A stretch of 34,906 nucleotides of DNA, taken from contig SAAO01000039.1 of NCBI GenBank assembly GCA_009929375.1, positions 1 through 34,906 of the forward strand, given 5' to 3'. Positions 8,883 through 22,311 of this stretch are shown here, one piece after another. Numbering within the stretch: the first letter of the stretch is position 1; every line of letters starts with the position of its first letter. The notes under the pieces were generated by a model, which saw only the letters and a program-made list of their open reading frames with translations, made no database searches and was not told where the DNA came from. The translations under genes and the position numbers were made by a program. The stretch comes from Bacteroidia bacterium. Its GTDB lineage: Bacteria > Bacteroidota > Bacteroidia > Bacteroidales > Paludibacteraceae.

Positions 8883-9332
8883 TTACCGCGGTCCCTGACG
8901 GCGTCCTTTACCCTGCCAGTCGCGTATCAATTCCTTTCTGAATGAGCGTTCTGTCTCCAGATAGTTGAATATCTGTTCGGCGGTAAGATGCTTTTTAAGT
9001 TTGTTGTAATAATTTTTCATCAACTGTGCTTTTTGCATCTCTGTATTCACAAAACGGTCATTTATCTGCGCATAATCAGGCTTTGCATTCGAACGTTTGT
9101 CCTGATTAAATTTACGGTATGCATCTTTGTTTTGTTCCATCAGTTTCCAAACAGCTGATTCATATTCCATAAACAGCGGTTGTATTTTTTCGACTTCATG
9201 CGCATTAAACTGCATTTTCTCGGCTATAAACTCCCATTTACGGGCGTGCATTTCTTCCACGCTCGGGCGTTGTTGTGCCTCCACATTGATAAATGCCATT
9301 ATCATAGCCAATATTACAAATGTTTTTTTCAT
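8883..9332 (-). CDS. Small secreted Spy/CpxP-like helical protein of an ECF sigma locus
   Basis: This 149-residue protein has a cleavable signal peptide (MKKTFVILAMIMAFINVEAQQ) and an otherwise all-helical, charged body. The pattern E-x-x-A-R-K-W-E-F-I...L-T-A-E-Q-I-F-N-Y is reminiscent of Spy/CpxP/zinc-resistance-associated periplasmic proteins, which bind misfolded proteins or metals, but I see no clear LTxxQ pair, so the assignment is tentative. It is the last gene of the leftward sigma - membrane protein - periplasmic protein set. In Bacteroidota such small proteins often accompany ECF sigma factors and may act as stress sensor or effector. Start is ATG at 9332; the intergenic gap to the preceding gene is 27 nt. 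Confidence 0.75.
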   Translation of the reverse strand: MKKTFVILAMIMAFINVEAQQRPSVEEMHARKWEFIAEKMQFNAHEVEKIQPLFMEYESAVWKLMEQNKDAYRKFNQDKRSNAKPDYAQINDRFVNTEMQKAQLMKNYYNKLKKHLTAEQIFNYLETERSFRKELIRDWQGKGRRQGPR

Positions 9333-17998: not shown

Positions 17999-18769
17999 TT
18001 ATTTCAGATTCGATTTATTAAAAACTCCGGAAGGAATCGTTCCGTCAAACTGAATGCTAAGCACAGTCATTTTGGTGCCTTTTCCTTCTTTGAGCATATC
18101 CTTGTAAATCATTTCCATTGGGAACCAGCGTTCCTGAATTTTCTGTACATTGCTCAGCGTTGTTCTTTTCAACAATTTTCCGCTTTTGGCAAAAAGATCC
18201 ATTTTAAGTGGCACAAATCTTTCCTGATCGACCCAGATTTTCTGACTGTGATAATTTACATTTTCTTTTATCGCAGTGAGCGTCACAACCCAGCATTTAC
18301 GATCAGCAATTATTTCCTCTGCAGTCACTTCGGCTTTGTAACGTTCCAAAAGCGGACTATCGCTCATCATATCTTCGTACGACATATCGCTACCCATTAC
18401 CGACTGACGAAGCATATGACCGGAAATCTGCATAACCCTATCGGTTGAAGGCGAGAATATCCAGAGTTGATTTTCGAGTTTCAGCATTTTCGTACCTTTT
18501 TCACGCGCTGGGGAAAGATATTCGGTATAAGCCTTCTCCTCTCCTTCTATCCATGATTTAGATTCGAACGTTCGCACAGAGCGTCCTCCCTGAATTTCCA
18601 TTTTCGAAGTTATCACCCTGGTTTTCGAAGACATATTACGGTCTACTTTATCCAAAATTGATTTTCCTGAAGGATAATTCTGAGCAGATAATGAAAATGA
18701 GAAAATTAATAGAAAAAGAACCCCCTGACCCCTAAAGGGGAGTGAAATTAGATTTTTGATTGAGTTCAT
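17999..18769 (-). CDS. LolA-like periplasmic outer-membrane lipoprotein-sorting protein
   Basis: This 256-residue protein has an N-terminal signal peptide followed by a LolA/LppX-type half-barrel: SKTRVITSKMEIQGG, SWIEGEEKAYTEYLSPAREKGTKMLKL, LWIFSPSTDRVMQI and SYEDMM are typical of the outer-membrane lipoprotein-sorting family (DUF related to PF17131). Such proteins shield acyl chains in the periplasm. It is the last gene of the cassette, 36 nt after a permease gene, so it may accept cargo from it. The signal peptide's N-region (SLPFRGQG) is encoded by a copy of the GC-rich palindromic repeat (18721-18740), so the N-terminus has been remodelled by the repeat. ATG at 18769; no internal Met lies between it and the signal core. 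Confidence 0.85.
   Translation of the reverse strand: MNSIKNLISLPFRGQGVLFLLIFSFSLSAQNYPSGKSILDKVDRNMSSKTRVITSKMEIQGGRSVRTFESKSWIEGEEKAYTEYLSPAREKGTKMLKLENQLWIFSPSTDRVMQISGHMLRQSVMGSDMSYEDMMSDSPLLERYKAEVTAEEIIADRKCWVVTLTAIKENVNYHSQKIWVDQERFVPLKMDLFAKSGKLLKRTTLSNVQKIQERWFPMEMIYKDMLKEGKGTKMTVLSIQFDGTIPSGVFNKSNLK
18721..18740 (-). repeat. GC-rich palindromic repeat, copy A (inside LolA-like gene)
   Basis: Plus-strand CCCCCTGACCCCTAAAGGGG. The core CCCCTAAAGGGG is shared with copies at 20073, 20124 and 21466. It is translated on the minus strand as LPFRGQG within the signal-peptide N-region, 29 nt after the start codon. The following GTGAAATTAGATTT also resembles the flank of copy B. Confidence 0.8.
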
Positions 18770-18805
18770 AAATCGTAAATTGTAAATGAATAAATTGTAA
18801 ATATC

Positions 18806-20179
18806 TTAGTTTTCCAACTCTTTAAACAAGCTGGCTGTCTGGCGTTTATAAATTCCTATTCCTGCAAGCATAGCGCCAATCACAGTAGACAATACTCCGG
18901 GAATAAAACCGATCCAATATGTGGTAGCACTAATCTGCGAACGAAAAACAGTGGGAAGCATCATTTGAGTATTTTGCATCATACCACTTATATCAATTCC
19001 GTATTTCTGCATAAGCCAGCTAAAGAAAAGCCCGACGACCGTTCCAAGAAGTGAACCCACTATTCCTGTAAAAAGAGCTTCAACAATCAGTGAACGGTAT
19101 ATTTCATGTTTACTTTCGCCGATTGCCAAACGCAACCCAAATTCGCCATAACGCCTTAAACCGCCCACCAATCCGGTATTCCATAGCACTACCGACATGG
19201 CAATTATAAAAATAAATATCACCAGAAACTGAGCATTTTCAGAATAAGCAATCATAAAATCCATCCCTCCTACTCCGCTCATGGGCGCCATAGTAAGCGA
19301 AAATTTTTCTTGAGTATCTGTGTTTTTGCTATTGAAATTTGCAGCCAGTGCTTCAGCACGACTATTATCGTAATGCGAATCGCTGAAAAAGCCGAGAATT
19401 TCGCCTGCTGCATTTTCCATATTCAATGCAAAACGGACATCATTAATATCAGCCACAATCATTCCTCTGTCGAGCGCTTCGGTGCCAAAATGCAGCAATC
19501 CGCTGATACGAAAATTGTACATGGCCATTTCTCCATACATCGAAGCCGACATCAGGGTTACCTGATCGCCAACCACGAGTTTCATTTTTCGCGCCAGTTC
19601 TTTGGTAATGAGCGCTTCGCCCTGCTTTTGCGGAAAGTCACCTTCTATTAGTTTGGTTTGCAGATCCATGCGCTGAATTTCATCGGAACTATTCAGCAAA
19701 TGTATCCCCATCCCCAGCACATTTCCCTGCGAGCGGGTATTTCCGAGCGAATCAGGCGCATCCAACAAACCTCCGAACTGAATGCGGTCGGTCCATATCA
19801 TATCAGGAAAATCTGTACGCAACATTTCGAGTGTGTTATCCACTTCGAGCATGGCATAGTCATTGGGCATTTGCGACAAATTTTCACGATAGGCCGTGGT
19901 CATCACTTTCACATGACCCGAACTGAAACGTGCAGTAGACTCAATACTGTCGCTAAAAATTCCACTCATGTAAGCTTCGAGAAACACAGTCATCATAACG
20001 CCCACTGTAACCACAATAATAGGCAATAAACTCCGGCTTTTATCCCGGATAAGTCCTTTAAAAAGGAAACTACCCCCAACCCCTAAAGGGGATTTGAAGT
20101 TAGATTCGTTTTTAATATTTTTACCCCCAACCCCTAAAGGGGGGGTAGAGTTAGTTTCGTCACTATTGTTCATAATCAT
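18806..20179 (-). CDS. ABC transporter permease, FtsX/LolE-like (permease 1)
   Basis: 457 residues. After an unusual N-terminal extension (about 1-45) come a membrane helix (about 52-75, LLPIIVVTVGVMMTVFLEAY), a MacB-like periplasmic domain (about 80-310) and an FtsX domain with three helices near the C-terminus (about 315-450). This is the MacB/LolCE topology. It would pair with the ATPase encoded at 21563. The extension contains PPLGVGG and SPLGVGG, encoded by repeat copies C and B, and does not look like FtsX sequence; the family body begins near LFKGLIRDKSRS. ATG at 20179 and at 20173 are both possible starts. The gap to permease 2 upstream is 55 nt and holds repeat copy D. Confidence 0.88.
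   Translation of the reverse strand: MIMNNSDETNSTPPLGVGGKNIKNESNFKSPLGVGGSFLFKGLIRDKSRSLLPIIVVTVGVMMTVFLEAYMSGIFSDSIESTARFSSGHVKVMTTAYRENLSQMPNDYAMLEVDNTLEMLRTDFPDMIWTDRIQFGGLLDAPDSLGNTRSQGNVLGMGIHLLNSSDEIQRMDLQTKLIEGDFPQKQGEALITKELARKMKLVVGDQVTLMSASMYGEMAMYNFRISGLLHFGTEALDRGMIVADINDVRFALNMENAAGEILGFFSDSHYDNSRAEALAANFNSKNTDTQEKFSLTMAPMSGVGGMDFMIAYSENAQFLVIFIFIIAMSVVLWNTGLVGGLRRYGEFGLRLAIGESKHEIYRSLIVEALFTGIVGSLLGTVVGLFFSWLMQKYGIDISGMMQNTQMMLPTVFRSQISATTYWIGFIPGVLSTVIGAMLAGIGIYKRQTASLFKELEN
20073..20091 (-). repeat. GC-rich palindromic repeat, copy B
   Basis: Plus-strand CCCCCAACCCCTAAAGGGG, identical over 19 nt to copy C. Translated in permease 1 as SPLGVGG. Confidence 0.85.
20124..20142 (-). 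repeat. GC-rich palindromic repeat, copy C
   Basis: Plus-strand CCCCCAACCCCTAAAGGGG. Translated in permease 1 as PPLGVGG, 31 nt after its second ATG. It is an inverted partner of copy D, and the pair brackets the start of permease 1. Confidence 0.85.
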
Positions 20180-20214
20180 AATTTAAAATTTTAACGATCA
20201 TTGCATTTATCATT

Positions 20215-20233
20215 CCCCTTTAGGGATTAGGGG
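20215..20233 (+). repeat. GC-rich palindromic repeat, copy D (inverted)
   Basis: Plus-strand CCCCTTTAGGGATTAGGGG, the reverse complement of copy C at 17 of 19 positions. The two differences become G-U pairs in the leftward transcript, so all 19 positions can pair with copy C. It lies 1 nt past the stop of permease 2. Confidence 0.8.
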
Positions 20234-20234
20234 T

Positions 20235-21521
20235 TTATATAGCTTTTCCTCTGATAGCTTCGGTTGGATTCATCTTTGCAATTTTCCGCGCTGGTAAATA
20301 ACTCACCCCAGCAGTTATTACAATGATAAACAACATTGTAGCGAACACCAAGCCGGGAGTCACCGAAGCATACATAGTGTCACCCATTGCCACTCCGATT
20401 TCGCTGGCATCTATATTAAAAGTAATACCTTTGTTCACCATATACCACAAAAGCGGCGTTCCCCAAATAGCACCCACCACAAACGAAAGCAGGGAATTGA
20501 AAGTACCTTCAAGCGTAAAATGCCACATTACCTGCCGTGGAGTCATTCCCATTGCCACAAGTGTTCCTATTTCGCGCTGACGACGAAATATCGACAAAGT
20601 CTGTGTATCAAAAATAGCCAGCATGGCCAGCAAAAGAAAAATGACATACAAAAGGCTTGTACCCATCGACTTAGTTTCAACCAGTAACATGGTTGACGCG
20701 GTCAGGTCTTCAACCGATTTAAAATTCCAGCCCGCTACTTGCTTCGCCTCAATTTCAGGAGATTTTATCAGTAAATGTGCTGCATTTTCGCGCAAAGTCA
20801 TCGATTGCAGTTTGTCGAGTGGTATCCAGAGCGAACCATTATCGACCGAAGGTACAGAAGTTTTAAAAATTCCGACCACGCGAATATCAGCAGCTTCGAA
20901 AGTTCCATTCTTGTCACGCCAGCGTAAAGTGGTTATATCATTCAGCTTAAGGCCTGCCTGACGGGCCATATATGCTCCCAGAATCACCGGAATTTCAGTT
21001 TCACCTTCATTTGCTTTAAGTAATTCTGCAGGTATTTTAAGCAATTTCTGATCGGGACGAATGCCACGCAGCAAAACGCCCATCATACGTCCACCGGGAT
21101 AAATGCTTGCCTGACTGACAAGTACAGGTTCAATATTATGTAAATTTAGGTCTTCCTGTAATTCAGCAGGAATAGCCACAGCACTCGAATCGAGACTAAA
21201 AGGATCATAAGGATCGTAACCTTCCTGCCAGTACTGACCATCAGCAATTTCCCAACGCACGGTATCTTCCACAGCCTGTTCGCTCCAACCCTTCAGAAGA
21301 CCCTGAAGCAAAACGATCAGCACAAACGAAACCGAAAGCACCGACACATTCAGCCACGTTTTCAGACCATTACCAATCAGGCTTTTAAAGGCTGTTTTAA
21401 ATAAGAATAAGCTACCTTTTCTCCCAAGCCCTGAAGAATTGTACTGAGTTTTATCAATATTATTACCCCCGGCCCCTAAAGGAGAGTAAGAGTTAGTTTC
21501 GTCGATACTATTCATAATCAT
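20235..21521 (-). CDS. ABC transporter permease, FtsX/LolE-like (permease 2)
   Basis: 428 residues. An atypical N-terminal extension (about 1-40) is followed by a membrane helix (about 52-73, WLNVSVLSVSFVLIVLLQGLL), a periplasmic domain (about 80-290) and three C-terminal helices typical of FtsX (about 290-420, with IGTLVAMGMTPRQVMWHFTLEG). It is probably the partner of permease 1 in a LolCDE/MacB-like complex. The extension (MNSIDETNS, SPLGAGG, then a degenerate SSGLGRKG) parallels that of permease 1 step by step, including two repeat-derived peptides, which suggests shared ancestry or recombination of the 5' region. Starts at ATG 21521 or 21515. The gap to the ATPase gene is 41 nt. Confidence 0.88.
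   Translation of the reverse strand: MIMNSIDETNSYSPLGAGGNNIDKTQYNSSGLGRKGSLFLFKTAFKSLIGNGLKTWLNVSVLSVSFVLIVLLQGLLKGWSEQAVEDTVRWEIADGQYWQEGYDPYDPFSLDSSAVAIPAELQEDLNLHNIEPVLVSQASIYPGGRMMGVLLRGIRPDQKLLKIPAELLKANEGETEIPVILGAYMARQAGLKLNDITTLRWRDKNGTFEAADIRVVGIFKTSVPSVDNGSLWIPLDKLQSMTLRENAAHLLIKSPEIEAKQVAGWNFKSVEDLTASTMLLVETKSMGTSLLYVIFLLLAMLAIFDTQTLSIFRRQREIGTLVAMGMTPRQVMWHFTLEGTFNSLLSFVVGAIWGTPLLWYMVNKGITFNIDASEIGVAMGDTMYASVTPGLVFATMLFIIVITAGVSYLPARKIAKMNPTEAIRGKAI
21466..21484 (-). repeat. GC-rich palindromic repeat, copy E
   Basis: Plus-strand CCCCCGGCCCCTAAAGGAG, translated in permease 2 as SPLGAGG, 31 nt after its second ATG, the same spacing as copy C. A more degenerate copy, CTCCCAAGCCCTGAAG, lies at 21421-21436. 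Inverted partner of copy F. Confidence 0.75.
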
Positions 21522-21557
21522 AATTTAAAATATAAAACAATCGAAACATTGATTATT

Positions 21558-21576
21558 CGCCTTTAGGGGTTAGGGG
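21558..21576 (+). repeat. GC-rich palindromic repeat, copy F (inverted)
   Basis: Plus-strand CGCCTTTAGGGGTTAGGGG. It overlaps the 3' end of the ATPase gene and supplies its last codons (TPNP) and the TAA stop. It matches the reverse complement of copy E at 15 of 19 positions. Confidence 0.75.
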
Positions 21577-22261
21577 TAATTCTTGTATCTTCCACTACTT
21601 TTCCATCCTGCAAACGAATGATACGTTTCAGATAACCAATCACTTTTTCGTCGTGTGTGGCAAAAAGGAATGATGTTTTGAGTTCCCCGTTCAATCGAAG
21701 CATGGTTTGCAGAATATTGTGTGAGTTTGCCGAATCGAGATTGGCGGTAGGCTCGTCGGCCAAAACCAGTAATGGTCGTTTTACCATTGCACGCGCAATA
21801 GCTACCCGCTGACATTCGCCACCGGACAATTGCGCGGGACGTGAATTTACTTTATCCGAAAGCCCAACCCATTCAAGAGTTTCGAGGACACGCTTTTTTC
21901 GCTCACCCGCTGACATTCCAAGTAGTAAAAGCGGAAATTCCACATTTTCGAAAACAGTATAGACCGGAAGTAAATTGTAATTCTGAAAAATGAATCCCAG
22001 TTCTTCCTTTCTTAAAGTTGCAGCTTGTCGGGGCTTGAGGTTTTCGACATTGCGCGACAAAACCACCACTTCGCCGGTAGTAGGCATATCGAGCGAACCG
22101 ATGATATTGAGTAAAGTCGTTTTTCCCGATCCGCTCGGTCCAACAAGACCGGCAAATTCGCCTTCACCGAAACTCAGATTTATTCCGTTAAGTGCTGTAA
22201 AGAACCCCGATCCAACAGGAAATTTCTTCACCAGATTTTTCACTTCTACAATTGTATTCAT
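21563..22261 (-). CDS. ABC transporter ATP-binding protein, LolD/MacB type
   Basis: This protein of about 232 residues has a complete nucleotide-binding domain: Walker A GPSGSGKTT (about 43-51 in the longer frame), Q-loop in FQNYNLLP, signature LSGGECQRVAIARA, Walker B LLVLADEPTANLDS and H-loop ATHDEK. NYNLLPVYTVFENVEFPLLLLG is typical of LolD/MacB ATPases, which power extraction of lipoproteins or efflux through FtsX-type permeases rather than solute import. The start is ATG at 22261 (MNTIVEVKNL); the longer frame opens with TTG. It follows the barrel-protein gene by 50 nt. The last residues (TPNP) and the stop come from repeat copy F. Confidence 0.93.
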   Translation of the reverse strand: MNTIVEVKNLVKKFPVGSGFFTALNGINLSFGEGEFAGLVGPSGSGKTTLLNIIGSLDMPTTGEVVVLSRNVENLKPRQAATLRKEELGFIFQNYNLLPVYTVFENVEFPLLLLGMSAGERKKRVLETLEWVGLSDKVNSRPAQLSGGECQRVAIARAMVKRPLLVLADEPTANLDSANSHNILQTMLRLNGELKTSFLFATHDEKVIGYLKRIIRLQDGKVVEDTRITPNP

Positions 22262-22311
22262 AATCAATATGATTTTTAATTTCGTTTCTATTCAGTCAGA
22301 CTCAATTGTTT

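Follow-up and report, generated by a model that had tools for sequence, protein, structure and literature searches.

Tagged repetitive extragenic palindromic (REP) sequences are mostly treated as extragenic. PMC3733652 places them predominantly in gamma- and alpha-Proteobacteria and states that Rickettsia palindromic elements (RPEs) end in CGTC. REPINs, inverted doublets of REPs, have spacing peaks at 71 and 110 bp in PMC3116915, and PMC12306157 lists 446 of 4,072 Escherichia coli REPs within 15 nucleotides (nt) of a stop codon. Here we describe a palindromic repeat family found in a 34,906-nt stretch of DNA (contig SAAO01000039.1; below called the window), where its copies lie within a single ABC-export operon. 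The window belongs to a Paludibacter genome of the order Bacteroidales (G000; 3.87 Mb, 122 contigs). We read the family as short non-autonomous REPIN-like mobile elements, with a probability of about 0.72. Close relatives, in chromosomes and phage contigs alike, are distinguished by indels of units and of doublets.

Structure and spread of the repeat family

The exact core CCCCTAAAGGGG occurs three times in the window, and three further sites have one mismatch (Table 1). All six lie between positions 18720 and 21577, inside the operon, as the original prediction had it. With up to two mismatches allowed, 11 matches were obtained against 1.08 expected, and none of 100 shuffles reached 11. Three of the 11 are the exact sites read again on the opposite strand, and the remaining two, at 9233 and 26975, have two mismatches each and are at chance level; the claim that the window holds no other copy stands. 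The suggestion that such a density is special to this operon does not, given that 96 exact cores are scattered across many contigs of G000. The pattern read backwards, used as a control, gives none.

Alignment of all 96 copies yields a unit of the form (A/G)CCCC(C)-spacer-CCCC-TAAA-GGGG-tail. It is about 36–43 nt long and consists of an outer foot of four or five C, a spacer of 2–5 nt, the CCCC-TAAA-GGGG hairpin and a tail. The tails are variable; many have TTAG about 8 nt past the hairpin, and TTAGT is found in 19 of 100 tails from a second genome, G015, against 7.3 in shuffled tails (the counts for G015 rest on 100 of its 111 cores). A complete element is formed by two units with the tails inward and a variable, mostly AT-rich middle of 15–123 nt. 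Two-ended elements of G015 are 54–163 nt long, with 27–117 nt from core to core. Neighbouring copies no more than 200 nt apart form 26 ‘+-’, no ‘-+’, three ‘++’ and two ‘--’ pairs in G015, and 13, one, two and one pairs, respectively, in G000. Of 100 copies in G015, 66 have a relaxed inverted partner at the tail side and three have one at the foot side; in G000, where the M forms described below were excluded, the corresponding numbers are 27 and none of 62.

The 96 copies of G000 were sorted by pattern, a procedure that misplaces some copies, into 62 of a gene-end type and 34 longer intergenic ones (26 M1 and eight M2). The M1 form is about 100 nt long and has GTGCAA inside. At five loci (L016, L028, L043, L056, L075) it has a hairpin alike at both ends and GTGCAA..TTGCAC within. 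This form lies mostly 50–300 nt from called genes and resembles a miniature inverted-repeat transposable element (MITE). A two-type labelling of element ends was tried and rejected as too loose for use. Three blocks of about 5.41 kb in G015 (C1:191725-197148, 1435115-1440537 and 2291569-2296990) are each bounded by copies with the same two unit flank types, the feet pointing inward; presumably these blocks are rRNA operons.

Among 24 genomes of the genus, G000 included, 22 contain the core in 5 to 261 copies each, the two without it being G003 and G006. The core was found in four of 16 genomes from other families of the order. A phylum-wide sample of 395 genomes contains 46 with at least one core, and only G072, G138, G253 and G402 have at least 10 cores outside the genus. 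In terms of the exact core, which is what these counts cover, the expansion is mainly within one genus. Literature searches with the core strings and the peptide gave nothing relevant among the matches listed. The family is described in no paper located by a search that left most subscription journals uncovered, and the word ‘palindrom’ is absent from the P. propionicigenes genome paper.

Filled and empty junctions and placement at gene ends

The operon is conserved through much of the genus and also in G028 and G030, which belong to two other families, whereas its junctions are not. A strict pattern gave 3/25, 10/25, 4/26 and 6/22 filled junctions at the four junctions over 29 loci; these are lower bounds, since the pattern misses degenerate copies and scored the ATPase junction of the window itself as empty. 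L154 has 102 nt more than L156, including a whole doublet between stop and start codons, and the spacer of L156 is 14 nt. Between L162 and L164 the flanks are 92 and 94% identical and the entire spacer is exchanged. The doublet preceding lolA is common to L154, L156 and L160, and L188 lacks it. Permease 2 of L154 has an in-frame insertion of net 18 nt, and in both L154 and L155 (G022 and G016) single units are located in a loop within the permease-2 coding sequence.

Similar differences are seen in phage contigs. The 22-mer ACCCCTAACCCCTAAAGGGGAA matches 48 IMG/VR contig stretches, which form 22 groups at 95% identity. Relatives of at least one of eight phage-type proteins are encoded in 18 of the 48, and 13 of these 18 have a terminase large subunit (PHROG matches of 1e-8 to 1e-9); the stretches were chosen by the 22-mer, the proteins for recognizing relatives were drawn from the same set, and some stretches may be prophage pieces or misassigned contigs. 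Both L351 and L382 encode a terminase; the identity of their flanks is 99.5 and 98.5%, and the net difference between them is 42 nt. It corresponds to one unit fused to the stop codon (L382 has GATTAA and L351 GATTAGCCCCC..). An entire doublet distinguishes two other viral contigs, L379 and L365, and at a site where L391 has one unit, L371 carries a doublet plus a leader. Among the cultured phages of INPHARED, the window element had no meaningful match; four records matched its AT-rich middle over 21–25 bases.

The position of the copies relative to genes was compared with random placement. A copy was considered polar if it was at most 40 nt from a stop codon in the sense orientation or at most 60 nt from a start codon in antisense. 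In G015, 66 of 100 copies are polar, as opposed to 8.2 at random (standard deviation 2.8, maximum 17 in 200 trials), and the opposite polarity is found in nine (random 8.1). The numbers for G000 are 54 of 96 (random 8.0), or 50 of 62 (random 5.3) for the gene-end type alone. Most copies at gene ends point their foot at a gene. For the phages, 21 representatives contain 48 cores, of which 35 are polar (random 5.7). By our own gene calls, 79 of 96 copies in G000 and 81 of 100 in G015 are outside genes. The predicted link of the copies to start and stop regions is thus supported, and their placement across the genome is far from random.

Doublets occupy narrow spacers. In G015, 20 of 27 are in junctions of at most 40 nt (the element subtracted), which make up 2.1% of the spacer DNA examined. 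The genes on both sides are co-directional for 25 of the 27; this is no enrichment, because 135 of 155 junctions in the same stretches are co-directional anyway. In 20 of these 25, the distance from the upstream stop codon to the doublet start is between −25 and +10 nt. In the phage contigs, the seven doublets with both neighbours called have their starts at −15, 0, 0, 2, 3, 5 and 5 nt relative to the stop codon.

In-frame copies in the ABC-export operon

The operon is encoded on the minus strand in the order TetR-type regulator, 385-aa protein, ABC ATPase, permease 2, permease 1 and LolA-like protein (Table 1). A Pfam search gave no match for the 385-aa protein, and its label ‘omp’ is a guess. 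Copies are located inside the 5’ ends of the LolA-like, permease-1 and permease-2 genes and at the 3’ end of the ATPase gene, where they had been predicted. The copy at 21558 contains the ATPase stop codon TAA (21563-21565) in its spacer. The degenerate copy proposed at 21421 is confirmed by alignment, in which it also matches the second unit of the permease-1 leader.

Table 1. Genes, repeat units and cores of the window (doublets are named by the genes they separate)
Feature	Coordinates	Strand	Remarks
ABC ATPase	21563..22267	-	Pfam ABC_tran
FtsX-type permease 2	20235..21521	-	Pfam FtsX
FtsX-type permease 1	18806..20179	-	Pfam FtsX; MacB_PCD match below its cut-off
LolA-like protein	17999..18769	-	Pfam LolA_like
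Left (3’-side) unit, ATPase/permease-2 doublet	21558..21577	-	gene sense ACCCCTAACCCCTAAAGGCG
Right (5’-side) unit, ATPase/permease-2 doublet	21465..21503	+	in frame in permease 2: ..DETNSYSPLGAGG..; tail AGTAAGAGTTAGTTTCGTC
Decayed second unit, permease-2 leader	21421..21446	+	aligns with the other six copies; in duplicated block
Left unit, permease-2/permease-1 doublet	20215..20234	-	immediately 3’ of the permease-2 stop codon
Right unit, permease-2/permease-1 doublet	20123..20161	+	in frame in permease 1: DETNSTPPLGVGG
Second unit, permease-1 leader	20072..20105	+	in frame ..SPLGVGG; six relatives compared without it
Single unit early in LolA-like protein	18720..18757	+	MNSIK-NLISLPFRGQGV-LFLLIF
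Exact core	18729-18740	+	
Exact core	20080-20091	+	
Exact core	20131-20142	+	
One-mismatch core	20215-20226	-	
One-mismatch core	21473-21484	+	
One-mismatch core	21558-21569	-	

The two junction elements of the window are identical at 106 of 133 positions (80%). Identity is 52% (48/93) in the 100 nt before them and 74% (64/87) in the 100 nt after them, the second unit included, and a BLAST DNA comparison of the permease-1 and permease-2 genes gave no match above chance. In our reading the two are probably copies of one element that includes the start codon and the leader.

The leaders vary between relatives. Six relatives of permease 1 start with MI(R/K)FLFKGL and lack the repeat peptide. The permease-1 frame in the window starts with MNNSDETNSTPPLGVGGKNIKNESNFKSPLGVGGSFLFKGL, and no in-frame ATG, GTG or TTG follows the repeats before the point where the protein becomes conserved. 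Permease 2 and the LolA-like protein also have leaders, which several orthologues lack; in the LolA-like protein, the unit lies between what appear to be the n- and h-regions of the signal peptide. Certain relatives, e.g. L186, carry a copy or leader of their own at these operon genes. The peptides are hence no fixed component of these proteins.

In G015, 14 open reading frames (ORFs) with an upstream ATG read through a copy, giving predicted leader peptides such as MMNIKNNISDETNSVPLQGLG, and 23 ORFs run through a copy in G000 and its relatives, a few of them incidentally. Where the frame would meet the TAG of CCCCTTTAGGGG, the copy has CCCCTTCAGGGG instead in eight of eight cases, by necessity. 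G015 contains 21 cores of the CCCCTTCAGGGG kind and 111 of the common one, and each kind provides seven of the 14 leaders. The leaders stay open in frame. The left end of an element can supply the stop codon of the upstream gene, and the right end precedes the next start codon or sits inside the 5’ end of the gene as an open leader.

A more specific and, in our opinion, tentative proposal is that the family is a mobile intercistronic stop-and-restart cassette common to Bacteroidales chromosomes and phages. A typical left end, ACCCCTAACCCCTAAAGGGG and a tail with TAA or TAG, would shut all three frames. The right end would, in one variety, bring its own ATG and leader (..DETNSxPLGxG or ..DETNSVPLQGLG). 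Insertion at a junction, also where it crosses the final codons of one gene or the initial ones of the next, would leave both genes expressed, with the hairpin uncoupling or resetting translation, and the TTCA core (TAG to CAG) would permit leader reading in an otherwise closed frame.

Two further observations concern the same operon in other genomes. Its spacers in L118, L122, L164 and L113 differ by whole repeat classes, ACGAATTACACGAATT, TTGGTTGATTAGTTAATT, TTTACAATTTAC and CGGAACACGGAAC, as though one spacer had been swapped for another. The permease-2/permease-1 junction of L123 (a G002 contig; about 216-842) has a small ORF, which we take to resemble the four-helix-bundle/23S rRNA insertion protein family.

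Movement, alternatives and comparison with known systems

We suggest that the elements move in trans via a single-strand hairpin, as proposed for REPINs, and that they would survive mainly at tight junctions because they are harmless there to both genes. HUH-type (IS200/IS605-type) moves are not known to leave a target-site duplication. As expected for such moves, matches between the flanks of 33 doublets were not above those in permuted pairs.

Several results weigh against this mobile reading or set limits to it. A search for Y1 transposases and REP-associated tyrosine transposases (RAYTs), with the loci scanned and three of them read, identified no mover. Of the 64 Y1/RAYT loci scanned, most of them some 3 kb long, four (L076, L300, L320 and L327) contain a family unit, about as many as expected from copy density. 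The RAYT-like gene of G000, G015 and G022 is adjoined by different palindromes, of the GTAGGGACAGGTC-type with GTAG; they flank it on both sides in G022 and on a single side in the other two genomes. In G020, whose genome is 89% complete and has 42 cores, PF01797 gave no match. Arm-arm coevolution was sought in doublets and none was found (complementarity of own arms −44.41 and of permuted ones −44.59 kcal/mol; tails alone, −3.45 and −4.20 kcal/mol), and arm pairing thus shows no sign of selection. The indel between L351 and L382 could be either a gain or a loss. Copies of the opposite polarity exceed random placement in G000 (12 of 96, random 8.0) and in phages (12 of 48, random 5.6), probably since copies in short junctions are close to two gene ends. 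Among the 20 tight doublets of G015, seven have a negative residual spacer because a start or stop was called within the element; one is flanked by convergent genes. All gene calls are our own, made by codon score on the fetched stretches.

Other data on candidate movers are as follows. In G015 a family doublet is about 0.8 kb from the RAYT-like gene, and a unit is about 160 nt from one more Y1 gene. The RAYT-like gene scores 59.1 bits with NCBIfam REP_Tyr_transpos, below the cut-off of 80. Four of the five PF01797 proteins of G000 have the motif Y..(N/S)Q..HH, which resembles subclass 1.2 of PMC6006769; the fifth is interrupted. The core-free genomes G003 and G006 have no PF01797 match. In three ‘+-’ intervals of 0.2–3.5 kb, inspected by eye for an autonomous parent without a family search, no transposase was recognized. 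Palindromes of the GTAGGGACAGGTCRYGACCTGTCC-type adjoin the RAYT-like gene (C90 in G000) on one side in L301 (1359-1500) and L300 (2089-2221) and on both sides in L302 (1370-1490 and 2010-2030); gene and palindromes together look like a classical GTAG REP of Paludibacter and its transposase. In relatives, some Y1 genes are surrounded by another hairpin, CCCCGTAGGGG, and those of L128, L130 and L134 by several copies of a short hairpin, e.g. ATTCCCCGTAGGGGAT or CCCCTACGGGGAA.

It is improbable that the family itself consists of classical GTAG REPs moved by a RAYT. RAYT-like genes are present in G000, G015, G022 and other genomes and the geometry is REPIN-like, but the palindromes at these genes in all three genomes read are not of the CCCCTAAAGGGG kind, and GTAG occurs in 10 of 100 tails compared with 9.2 in shuffled ones, i.e. 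without enrichment. Local duplication or gene conversion within this operon alone agrees with the 80% identity of the two junction elements and is otherwise virtually untenable, being already contradicted by the 96 cores on many contigs. The original suggestion of spread by duplication or local recombination is supported in part; local duplication by itself does not suffice for a family that is genome-wide, genus-wide and phage-borne.

A different explanation is that the copies are a selected intercistronic RNA regulatory element whose hairpins tune translation or decay, with mobility secondary or absent. The bias to tight junctions agrees with it, as do the phage doublets flush with stop codons (n=7) and the RNA folds of four junctions, which have energies from −38.7 to −53.1 kcal/mol and z-scores of −2.25, −5.05, −5.17 and −6.03. 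Among these, the arm-arm hairpin has −39.6 kcal/mol (z −5.05) at the ATPase/permease-2 junction and −44.5 kcal/mol (z −6.03) at the permease-2/permease-1 junction; the single unit in the LolA-like gene folds no better than shuffles (z 0.00). Moreover, a doublet is kept in L154 and L156 and is by eye more conserved than its flanks, and REPs less than 16 nt from the stop codon reduce translation in E. coli, according to PMC12306157. However, presence at orthologous junctions is erratic, the arms do not coevolve, and for single units in the permease-2 coding loop a regulatory role is not evident. We therefore regard selection for regulation as an unlikely origin of the family. Under the mobile reading, too, a GC-rich intercistronic hairpin would probably alter translation or mRNA decay in the manner of E. 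coli REPs near stops, as the four folds and the REP literature suggest. A search of nine sources against Rfam 15 gave four matches, three tRNAs of the window and one FopS small RNA in L043, and no window unit scored above gathering. The latter match (Bacteroidetes FopS family, L043 4355-4429) has 74.2 bits.

The present palindromes, found in a Bacteroidales genus and in some phages, favour tight junctions, keep a fixed polarity and rewrite gene ends. If the mobile reading is true, the filled and empty junctions would form a natural set for testing the effects of intercistronic hairpins and the choice of sites by the element, and annotators should be warned that some N-terminal extensions in the genus are element-derived.

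Among the described systems, the family resembles REPINs, presented in PMC3116915 as inverted doublets of short palindromes with a variable spacer, in many copies and with single units too. It shares with them the inverted two-unit form and the lack of target-site duplication. It differs in its preference for tight junctions, its fixed polarity, its presence in phage contigs and the lack of a linked RAYT. No RAYT with the same palindrome in its flanks was found in G000, G015 or G022, and since this link was tested for, we do not file the family as a REPIN. Nor do we assign it to the GTAG or CGTC REPs, since most copies lack the tag: CGTC is present in 14 of 100 tails of G015 (3.2 in shuffled tails; nine at offset 14) and four of 96 tails of G000, hence in a minority of copies at most. 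The REPs and bacterial interspersed mosaic elements of E. coli similarly form hairpins between cistrons, some at most 15 nt from stop codons (PMC12306157). This likeness is one of placement, and the −25 to +10 nt range of 20 of 25 co-directional G015 doublets sets our family apart. MITEs have inverted ends and a variable middle, which brings the M1 form close to them; the absence of target-site duplication in 33 doublets does not. Finally, RPEs are palindromes in frame within proteins and absent from orthologues. In-frame copies of the present family occur in the leaders of the LolA-like protein and both permeases and in the permease-2 loop, a likeness in the manner of insertion, whereas most of its copies are outside genes and few of its tails have CGTC. 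In its mode of action the family appears to follow REPINs and, where copies lie within genes, RPEs.

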